Shown piece after piece: positions 33,918-37,048 of a DNA stretch of 64,000 bases. A model generated the notes under the pieces. It did no database searches. It was given only the letters and a program-made list of their open reading frames with translations, and had not been told where the DNA came from. Origin of the DNA: Maritimibacter harenae (GTDB taxonomy: Bacteria > Pseudomonadota > Alphaproteobacteria > Rhodobacterales > Rhodobacteraceae); NCBI RefSeq assembly GCF_009882975.1, contig NZ_WTUX01000011.1, positions 237,362-301,361 of the forward strand, written 5' to 3'. The translations under genes and the position numbers were made by a program. Positions within the stretch are counted from its first letter, which is position 1. The number at the start of each line of letters is the position of its first letter.

Positions 33918-34622
33918 TCAGCCGGCGGACGCCTGGTTGTGCTTGCGCGCCATGAACGCCTTGGCGGTTTCGACGGCCACCGCGGCGTCCCGGCAATAGG
34001 CATCGGCGCCGATCGCCTTGCCGAACTCCTCGTTCAGCGGCGCGCCGCCCACGAGGATGATGTAATCGTCGCGCATGCCCTTGGCCACCATCTCGTCGAT
34101 GACGACCTTCATGTAGGGCATCGTGGTGGTCAGCAGGGCGGACATCCCAAGGATGTCGGCATTCTCGGCCTCGAGCGCGTTGAGGTATTTCTCCGCCTCG
34201 CAGTTGATGCCGAGGTCGACCACCTCGAACCCGGCGCCTTCCATCATCATGGAGACCAGGTTCTTGCCGATGTCGTGGATGTCGCCCTTCACGGTGCCCA
34301 CCACCATGCGCCCGATCGTCGGGGCGCCGGTTTCGGCCAGAAGCGGCTTCAGGATCGACATGCCCGCCTTCATGGCGTTGGCGGCCAGAAGCACCTCGGG
34401 GACGAACAGGATGCCGTCGCGGAAATCGTGGCCCACGATGGTCATGCCCGCGACCAGCGCCTCGGTCAGGATCTGGTAGGGCTCCCACCCGCGTTCCAGC
34501 AGGATGTTGGTCGCTTCCTCGATCTCTTCGGCGAGCCCGTCGTAGAGATCGTCCATCATCTGGGCGACAAGCTCTTCGTCGTCGAGTTCGGAGAGGATGA
34601 TGTCGTCTTCTTCCTCGGCCAT
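33918..34622 (-). CDS. Corrinoid (B12-binding) methyltransferase protein
   Basis: The 234-residue protein has a helical cap (about residues 20-100) and a Rossmann B12-binding domain with the signature DIHDIGKN (residues 114-121), where His116 is the lower axial ligand of cobalt. It is the size of MtbC/MtmC-type corrinoid proteins and of the corresponding MetH fragment. It would carry the methyl group between a methyl donor and the homocysteine methyltransferase encoded 1.2 kb away. AAGGACAAG precedes the ATG. An AT-rich divergent region with an inverted repeat separates it from the SplB-like gene. Confidence 0.92.
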   Translation of the reverse strand: MAEEEDDIILSELDDEELVAQMMDDLYDGLAEEIEEATNILLERGWEPYQILTEALVAGMTIVGHDFRDGILFVPEVLLAANAMKAGMSILKPLLAETGAPTIGRMVVGTVKGDIHDIGKNLVSMMMEGAGFEVVDLGINCEAEKYLNALEAENADILGMSALLTTTMPYMKVVIDEMVAKGMRDDYIILVGGAPLNEEFGKAIGADAYCRDAAVAVETAKAFMARKHNQASAG

Positions 34623-34706: not shown

Positions 34707-34726
34707 TCGAAATGTGAGAGCGACCT

Positions 34727-34754
34727 TTGCACGGCGGTGTAAATGTTCTATTAA
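34727..34754 (+). promoter_or_regulatory. Sigma70-type promoter of the SplB-like gene
   Basis: TTGCAC (34727-34732) and TATTAA (34749-34754) are 16 bp apart. The -10 ends seven bases before the ATG at 34762, and no ribosome site lies in between, so the mRNA is probably leaderless. The LexA box overlaps this -10. Confidence 0.45.
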
Positions 34755-34759
34755 TGTTC
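34745..34759 (+). promoter_or_regulatory. LexA (SOS) operator, GTTC-N7-GTTC
   Basis: GTTC (34745-34748), seven bases TATTAAT, and GTTC (34756-34759) match exactly the direct-repeat SOS box of alphaproteobacteria. It spans the -10 region and ends two bases before the start codon of the SplB-like gene, an ideal repressor position. Confidence 0.7.
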
Positions 34760-34761
34760 TC

Positions 34762-35844
34762 ATGTCCGACGAATTCATTCATATTGATCATGAGCGGCGT
34801 CGCGGACGCGCGGCATCGACCAACCGGGCGGGGCGGTTCGAGCGCTTCGACCGGGTGGACGTGTCGGACGGCTGGGCGCCTGATTCGCCCGCCACGATCC
34901 GCACCGAGGTGCGGCTGGAGGCCCCGCGCTCGGCGATCACGCGCAACAGTTCACCGGACGTGCCCTTCGACCGCTCCATCAATCCCTACCGGGGCTGCGA
35001 GCATGGCTGCATCTATTGCTTCGCGCGCCCGAGCCACGCCTGGCTGGGCATGTCCGCCGGGCTGGATTTCGAGACGCGGCTGGTGGCGCGGCCAGGGATC
35101 GGCAAGGTGCTGGCGCGCGAGCTCGCGCGGCGCTCCTACCGCCCCGCGACCATCGCGATCGGGACCAACACCGATCCCTACCAGCCGATAGAGGGGCGCC
35201 ACCGCGTGATGCGCGAGGTGCTGGAGGTGCTGGCCGAGCACCGCCACCCGGTGGGCATCGTCACCAAGGGCACGCTGATCGAGCGTGACCTCGACATCCT
35301 GTCGGAGATGGCCGGGCAGGGGCTCGTGCATGTCGGGGTGTCGGTCACCACGCTGGATCCGGCGCTGTCACGGCGCATGGAGCCCCGGGTGCCAGCGCCC
35401 GCCCGCCGGATCGCCACGATCCGGGCGCTGGCGGAGGCCGGGGTGCCGGTGCGGGTCATGGCTTCGCCGATGGTGCCGGGGCTCACGGACAGCGAACTCG
35501 AGCGCATCCTGTCGGAGGCGGCCGAGGCCGGGGCGCAGGCGGCCAGCTGGATCATGCTGCGCCTGCCGCGCGAGGTGGCGGGGCTGTTCGAGGACTGGCT
35601 CAAGGAGCATTACCCGGACCGCGCGGGCCGCGTGCTGGGCCACCTGCGCGACATGCACGGGGGCGCCCTCTACGAGGCCGAGTGGGGCAAGCGGATGCGG
35701 GGCACGGGCCCCTATGCCGAGATGCTGGACATGCGCTTTCGGGTGGCGCTGAAACGGCTCGGGCTCAGCCGCGACCTGCCGGCGCTGCGCACCGACCTCT
35801 TTCGCGTGCCGCCGCGTGCGGGCGATCAGCTGTCACTTTTCTGA
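34762..35844 (+). CDS. PA0069/SplB-like radical SAM protein
   Basis: The 360-residue protein belongs to the COG1533 group, named after spore photoproduct lyase. The iron-sulfur motif is Cys79, Cys83 and Cys86 in GCEHGCIYCFAR, preceded by the family's RGRAASTNRAGRFER start. The barrel continues with GTNTDPYQPIE and VTKGTLIERDLDIL. Its substrate is not known; relation to SplB suggests DNA repair, and the LexA box at its promoter supports that. It lacks the C-terminal catalytic cysteine layout I would need to call it a true spore photoproduct lyase. Confidence 0.9.
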   Translation: MSDEFIHIDHERRRGRAASTNRAGRFERFDRVDVSDGWAPDSPATIRTEVRLEAPRSAITRNSSPDVPFDRSINPYRGCEHGCIYCFARPSHAWLGMSAGLDFETRLVARPGIGKVLARELARRSYRPATIAIGTNTDPYQPIEGRHRVMREVLEVLAEHRHPVGIVTKGTLIERDLDILSEMAGQGLVHVGVSVTTLDPALSRRMEPRVPAPARRIATIRALAEAGVPVRVMASPMVPGLTDSELERILSEAAEAGAQAASWIMLRLPREVAGLFEDWLKEHYPDRAGRVLGHLRDMHGGALYEAEWGKRMRGTGPYAEMLDMRFRVALKRLGLSRDLPALRTDLFRVPPRAGDQLSLF

Positions 35845-35851
35845 AGGGGGT

Positions 35852-36868
35852 TCAGCCCCGGCGGCGGCCGCGCCGTTCGCGCCGGGCCGGACCCTTGTCG
35901 TCGGTGCCGTCCGAGGCCGACGAGAAGCCGCCGAGTGCTTCCGCGATCGCCTCCAGAGTCGGCGCCGGGCCTTTCGGACGGGTTTCCAGCGCTTCGCGCA
36001 TGTGGCGCAGGTGCTCGGGCGTGGTGCCGCAGCACCCGCCGATGATGCGTGCGCCGCAGTCGCGGGCCATGACGGCGTAGTCCGCCATGAGCTCGGGCGT
36101 GCCGTCGTAGTGGATGTGGCCCTCCACGTATTTCGGGATGCCGGCGTTGCCCTTGGCGATCAGCGTGCGTTCCGTCCCGGTCTGGGCGAAGCCCAGCACC
36201 GTGCGCAGGAGGTCCGAGGCGCCCACGCCGCAGTTCGCGCCGAAGGCGATGGGCGGGTTGGGCAGGCCGTCGACCAGCTTGACCATGTCGGCCGATGTCA
36301 GGCCCATCATCGTGCGCCCGGCGGTGTCGAAGCTCATCGTGCCGCACCAGGGCATGCCCGACAGTTCGGCGGCGCGTGCGGCGGCCTTGTATTCGTCGGG
36401 CGAGGAAATCGTCTCGACCCAGAGCACGTCGACGCCGCCGGCTTTCAGCGCGTCGGCCTGTTCGTGGAACATCTCGACCGCGCCGTCGAAGGAGAGCGGG
36501 CCCATGGGCTCCATGATCTCGCCGGTCGGGCCCATCGAGCCCGCGACGATGACCGGGCGACCGGCCTTGTCGGCGACCTCGCGCCCCAGTTCGGCGGCGA
36601 CGCGGTTGAGCTCGCCCACGCGGTTCTGTGCCTCGTGCAGCTTCAGGCGCGAGGCATTGCCGCCGAAGGTATTGGTCAGGAACAGGTCCGAGCCCGCGTC
36701 AACCGGCCCCTGGTAGAGCGCGCGCACGCGGTCGGGGTGGTCGACGTTCCACATCTCCGGCGCGTCGCCCGAGGTGAGGCCCATGTTGAACAGGGTGGTG
36801 CCGGTGGCCCCGTCGGCCAGCAGCCATTCACGGGTGTCGAGAAGGGTCGAAAGCGCGTCTTGGGACAT
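35852..36868 (-). CDS. Homocysteine S-methyltransferase (BmtA/MetH homocysteine domain)
   Basis: The 338-residue protein has the homocysteine-binding barrel with zinc cysteines in GANCGVGASD and in IIGGCCGTTPEH, the same residues as in MetH and betaine-homocysteine methyltransferases. Its start, LLADGATGTTLFNMGL, is the family N-terminus, and it ends in a basic, possibly disordered tail. I infer that it takes the methyl group from the corrinoid protein encoded nearby to make methionine. Annotation pipelines often name it betaine-homocysteine methyltransferase. It converges on the SplB-like gene with a 7-bp gap. Confidence 0.9.
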   Translation of the reverse strand: MSQDALSTLLDTREWLLADGATGTTLFNMGLTSGDAPEMWNVDHPDRVRALYQGPVDAGSDLFLTNTFGGNASRLKLHEAQNRVGELNRVAAELGREVADKAGRPVIVAGSMGPTGEIMEPMGPLSFDGAVEMFHEQADALKAGGVDVLWVETISSPDEYKAAARAAELSGMPWCGTMSFDTAGRTMMGLTSADMVKLVDGLPNPPIAFGANCGVGASDLLRTVLGFAQTGTERTLIAKGNAGIPKYVEGHIHYDGTPELMADYAVMARDCGARIIGGCCGTTPEHLRHMREALETRPKGPAPTLEAIAEALGGFSSASDGTDDKGPARRERRGRRRG

Positions 36869-37048
36869 GGGGTCGGGTCTTTCCTGTGCGATCAACGGGT
36901 GATGTGACAGAAATCCGCCCGATGTGCAATTGACGGCCCCGCCGGCCCGTGTGCGTTGCCTACGCAACAGGGGCAAGGCGGCCCGGCGCAGGTGGCGCGG
37001 GCGGGCTTTAACGCATCTTGGCGGCGCCCCCGTGACGACAGTCCGGGA

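Follow-up and report, generated by a model that had tools for sequence, protein, structure and literature searches.

The stretch of Maritimibacter harenae DNA analysed here (the window, 64,000 nucleotides) contains a gene for a radical SAM protein of the PA0069 family, with a LexA (SOS) box and a predicted promoter directly before its start codon. The gene stands alone between two opposite-strand genes and is not in an operon. The flanking genes encode a corrinoid protein and a methyltransferase (33918–34622 and 35852–36976, both on the minus strand). We took the feature to start with the −35 element at 34727, its coding part starting at 34762. Its elements are as follows (SPL, spore photoproduct lyase):

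34727–34732, plus strand: predicted −35 element TTGCAC, read directly from the sequence
34745–34759, plus strand: LexA (SOS) box GTTC-N7-GTTC, GTTCTATTAATGTTC, from the sequence and its conservation in orthologues
34749–34754, plus strand: predicted −10 element TATTAA, within the LexA box, from the sequence and same-genus comparison
34761–34762, plus strand: predicted transcription start, at the A of the ATG or one base 5′, placed from the −10 position
34762–35844, plus strand: PA0069-family radical SAM gene, 360 amino acids, TGA at 35842–35844 (NF033668; Radical_SAM, PF04055)
34996–35019, plus strand: CX3CX2C [4Fe-4S] cluster motif, Cys79-Cys83-Cys86, invariant in 63 of 63 aligned relatives, the motif being present in 180 of 180 proteins
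35161–35187, plus strand: GTNTDPYQP motif, residues 134–142, matching FEA(A/S)C(T/Y)(S/T)D of SPL in a motif alignment made by eye with the L202 SPL and 4fhc

An earlier note on this DNA had described the box as lying over the −10 of a TTGCAC-N16-TATTAA promoter and ending two bases before the ATG, and direct reading of the sequence confirmed this arrangement. The spacer between TTGCAC and TATTAA is 16 nt, and the dinucleotide TC separates the end of the box (34759) from the ATG at 34762. The TTGCA core of the −35 element occurs at the same position in four same-genus loci (L015, L018, L023 and L030), and same-genus boxes spaced 2 or 5 nt from the ATG have a −10 of the form TA[TC][TA]AA.

Taken alone, the match within the M. 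harenae genome is weak evidence, and suggestive only. The window holds four perfect GTTC-N7-GTTC sequences where 1.57 are expected, an excess that was not significant (four or more were found in 8 of 100 shuffles). Genome-wide, the pattern occurs 113 times and its reversed form 59 times, and an AT-rich subset (GTTCN4WWYGTTC) 16 times compared to 6 for the reversed form. These counts would be compatible with the box being a chance match before a gene that LexA does not control. We regard this as extremely improbable, because conservation upstream of orthologues places the box far beyond chance.

The family model and protein searches together yielded 155 alphaproteobacterial orthologue loci with sufficient upstream DNA, including the window's own gene; the search range was 320 nt. 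A perfect box was found within this range in 146 of the 155 loci, compared to 4 of 155 when the reversed pattern was sought as a control and 0.4% (6 of 1650) of background windows of equal length elsewhere in the same loci; the loci are not independent, with a few near-duplicates among them, and the enrichment was judged too large for this to matter. Eight of the nine remaining loci have a box with one mismatch, and the ninth has a perfect box in the opposite orientation. Absence of the box before orthologues in near relatives, which the earlier note would have held against LexA control, was not what we found: the box is present in all eight genomes of the window's genus.

In the phylum's other classes, most orthologues have a different motif. 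The E. coli-type box CTGT-N8-ACAG was found within 320 nt in 16 of the 24 orthologues compared there, mostly near the start, while over the same distance the reversed pattern and the alphaproteobacterial-type box were each found in 0 of 24. On this comparison, SOS regulation is evidently kept with the gene across a complete change of LexA motif, an argument equivalent to the one made for splB (PMC3323433). The conservation in 146 of 155 orthologues and the exchange of motif in other classes thus support the LexA control that the earlier note proposed.

The M. harenae genome encodes both LexA and RecA. Pattern search, and retrieval of the regions around the matches, located an SOS box with overlapping half-sites upstream of lexA and further boxes before recA, uvrA, a uvrD-like (UvrD-type) helicase gene, imuB and a radical SAM gene of the UDG-linked type. 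Boxes were also found near weaker imuA-like and DnaE2-type matches. As judged from these assignments, the boxed genes are the expected alphaproteobacterial SOS set.

SOS regulation of this type of gene is already published and is not new. In 2012, splB was predicted to be under LexA control in alpha- and beta-proteobacteria (PMC3323433), and COG1533 SplB has been stated to be shown as SOS-regulated in several species, with citation of Cirz 2006 on P. aeruginosa (PMC8565304). A radical SAM gene is among the LexA targets of Streptomyces venezuelae (PMC9380542), and a radical SAM protein belongs to the core Gram-positive SOS regulon (PMC7739468). There is no mention of splB in the text of the paper on D. 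shibae LexA, and literature searches for PA0069 with LexA, for Rv2578c and for radical SAM with cisplatin returned nothing useful. The SOS-regulated P. aeruginosa gene of the 2006 work is, we assume, PA0069 itself. The gene described here is a typical representative of an SOS gene family that is already known, and to call its regulation direct evidence of a DNA-damage role, as the earlier note did, was too strong: the evidence is regulatory, and the control had been published before. What does seem new is the conserved leaderless layout, together with the absence of the SPL relay discussed below.

No Shine-Dalgarno-like stretch was seen before the ATG at 34762. The box and promoter are arranged in three ways among the orthologues. 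In the Rhodobacteraceae-like layout a −35 TTG lies just 5′ of the box, the 17-nt spacer contains the box and TAnnnT follows directly 3′; exactly 12 nt separate the box from the ATG in most of these other Rhodobacteraceae-like orthologues (36 of 58). In many other alphaproteobacteria the −35 TTG lies inside the box, with the ATG about 23–25 nt downstream of it. The window's genus shows a third placement, the box being shifted onto the −10. Despite the differing box positions, the gap between −10-like hexamer and ATG peaks at 6 nt in both of the first two groups (TANNNT in 25 of 58 and 19 of 43), and the gap of 7 nt in the window gene falls within the 6–7 nt peak of the orthologues. Shine-Dalgarno 4-mers were found in 0 of 58 Rhodobacteraceae-like upstream regions, which is consistent with leaderless initiation and not strong alone, given a shuffled expectation of 1.2. 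Among the other alphaproteobacteria they were found in 13 of 43, many within a TAGGAAT stretch of Mesorhizobium-like loci. In L107, L110, L135, L136, L139, L140, L142, L144, L145 and L147 this stretch lies some 7 nt 5′ of the ATG, and it could be either a −10 or a weak Shine-Dalgarno site.

The conserved gap between −10 and ATG, together with the count of 0 of 58, supports leaderless initiation at the predicted start, as the earlier note had suggested for this mRNA. Alternatively, the mRNA may have a leader, either from a promoter further upstream or with the in-frame GTG at 34714 as start codon. The open in-frame stretch does reach back to this GTG, and many Rhizobiales orthologues have a likely start farther from the box. 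However, the −35/−10 spacing is conserved, the 6-nt gap recurs in two groups, none of the 58 regions has a Shine-Dalgarno 4-mer, similarity among orthologues starts 3′ of the box, and the GTG would lie 5′ of the predicted promoter. We therefore think a leader distinctly unlikely. The same-genus locus L018 has the same box and promoter, and its likely ATG is 5 nt past the box rather than 2. Leader length may therefore lie between 0 and 3 nt and differ by one codon among species of the genus.

The encoded protein belongs to the PA0069 family, matching NF033668 over the whole profile (1–348 of 348) with 498.4 bits against a curated cut-off of 360, and it also matches Radical_SAM (PF04055). Its AlphaFold2 (AF2) model had a pLDDT of 85.9 and a pTM of 0.86, with the first 50 residues poorly predicted. 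Comparing this model with solved structures, both Foldseek and VIA-align ranked SPL first (Z 19.5 over 274 residues, 3.7 Å, 14% identity, spanning model residues 6–339). The next fold family scored Z 15.3, and other radical SAM folds, including lipoyl synthase, NifB and RlmN, scored Z 13–15. Fold comparison alone found SPL: searches of PDB sequences, with the single sequence and with a profile, did not find it, and comparing profiles with a bona fide SPL gave a weak match. The protein resembles any solved radical SAM enzyme that acts on DNA only very weakly in sequence. The description of the protein as SplB-like holds at the level of the fold and fails as a statement of function, since this is a PA0069-family protein without the SPL catalytic Cys.

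SPL requires a fourth Cys as hydrogen donor and a tyrosine relay, and the donor is either of the Cys141 type (Cys141 in Bs, Cys140 in Gt) or of the SPL(Ca) Cys74 type (PMC3742179, PMC5368176). The protein encoded here has three cysteines in total, all of them cluster ligands. The same is true of 60 of 180 family proteins, and there is no conserved fourth Cys among the 63 aligned relatives. Where SPL has FEAACTSD (4fhc; FEASCYTD in L202), this protein has IAIGTNTD, with Thr135 at the place of the donor Cys in a motif alignment by eye rather than a residue-level superposition; a Cys at the Thr135 position was never found in the family. The relay tyrosine of SPL (Tyr99 in Bs, Tyr98 in Gt), directly after the third cluster Cys, corresponds to Phe87, and this position is Phe in 157 and Tyr in 23 of the 180 proteins. 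Tyr96 (Gt) of SPL is retained as Tyr85.

Because the donor Cys is absent and the relay Tyr is mostly replaced by Phe, the protein is, judged by its predicted catalytic residues, not an SPL. That it might nevertheless be a true spore photoproduct lyase, reversing the dithymine spore photoproduct under SOS control, could be read from the name splB and from PMC3323433, and is favoured by SPL being the nearest solved fold and by weak Pfam SPL matches in 13 of 63 relatives (best E 0.0011). Against this, with all three cysteines in the cluster motif neither type of donor is possible, and Phe87 occupies the relay position. Pfam SPL (PF20903) has no match in the protein or anywhere in the genome, and one alphaproteobacterial genome (G087) carries both a bona fide SPL and a PA0069-family gene. 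The spore photoproduct, moreover, arises mainly in dry, A-form spore DNA. We consider a true SPL very unlikely. The PA0069 family may instead act on another lesion, or complete the reaction otherwise, for example with a second SAM-derived or an external reductant.

The box, promoter layout, family, fold and missing residues, all of them computational observations, are best accounted for by an SOS-regulon PA0069 radical SAM enzyme that is made from a leaderless mRNA and whose most likely substrate is damaged DNA; we put the probability of this whole explanation at about 0.68. From it we infer LexA binding and induction, the leaderless start, a DNA substrate and the chemistry, as follows. LexA bound at 34745–34759 would cover the −10 and block RNA polymerase. 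DNA damage would lead to RecA-driven cleavage of LexA, freeing the promoter, and transcription would begin at or adjoining the ATG to give a leaderless mRNA. In the protein, the [4Fe-4S] cluster would cleave SAM, and the resulting 5′-deoxyadenosyl radical would attack the substrate, most likely damaged DNA, so as to reverse a lesion directly or to process it. In an SPL-like barrel that has no Cys-Tyr hydrogen relay, we would expect a lesion and a radical-quenching step unlike those of SPL.

A DNA lesion is our best guess for the substrate, and SOS control itself does not prove it. Counted against a role in DNA repair, the conserved block around the gene in Rhodobacteraceae contains corrinoid and methyltransferase genes rather than repair genes. 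The enzyme could be SOS-induced and have a substrate such as tRNA, protein or some metabolite, perhaps acting on it together with the products of the two flanking genes: 63 loci retain the divergent corrinoid gene and 43 the methyltransferase gene, and the scores of the lipoyl synthase, NifB and RlmN folds are in keeping with such substrates. However, these neighbours are confined to Rhodobacteraceae-type loci and therefore do not explain a function common to other orders; the SOS box accompanies the gene in classes that differ in their LexA motif; and the gene shares no operon with its opposite-strand neighbours. A non-DNA substrate is thus unlikely in our view, and damaged DNA is preferred.

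An origin in a mobile element was also considered and dropped: phage records contained no full-length copy, three relatives are in viral contigs, and plasmid matches are mostly on very large replicons.

DNA-repairing radical SAM enzymes are, to our knowledge, almost unknown apart from SPL. That LexA control persists across two proteobacterial classes, although the LexA motif changes completely, is strong evidence, of a regulatory kind, for a role in the damage response. The absence of the SPL relay is a reason for caution with the term ‘photolyase’ that the SOS literature uses. Given the conserved leaderless layout, induction would be expected to be read out with neither a leader nor a Shine-Dalgarno site. 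Tentatively, and at somewhat less than even odds, the PA0069 family may be a new type of SOS-induced DNA repair enzyme, widespread and built on an SPL-like barrel, whose target lesion is not the spore photoproduct and whose radical is quenched by some means other than the Cys-Tyr relay.

Compared to known systems, the protein is closest to the PA0069 family (NF033668; COG1533 ‘SplB’), with which it shares a full-length match and the CX3CX2C and GTNTDPYQP motifs. The gene differs from others of the family in that its alphaproteobacterial-type LexA box overlaps the −10 and ends 2 nt from the ATG, compared to 12 nt in most other Rhodobacteraceae. The next best NCBIfam model, for Rv2578c-family radical SAM proteins (NF038135), scored 254 bits, under its curated cut-off of 430. 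With SPL (PF20903; PDB 4FHC/4FHD), its best solved fold match, the protein shares the cluster motif and a similar (T/S)D motif, but it has Thr135 for the donor Cys and Phe87 for the relay Tyr, is only 14% identical and falls under the Pfam cut-off. The UDG-linked radical SAM gene (TIGR03916, 578 bits) is a second SOS-boxed radical SAM gene of the same genome (L114, contig C50, 565–1794, minus strand). Like the gene described here, it has a LexA box (GAACATAGGGTGAAC) that covers the −10 and ends 2 nt 5′ of the ATG, with no Shine-Dalgarno site; its TAGGGT is followed by 6 nt and then the ATG. It belongs, however, to another family, and its box is oriented as GAAC-N7-GAAC.
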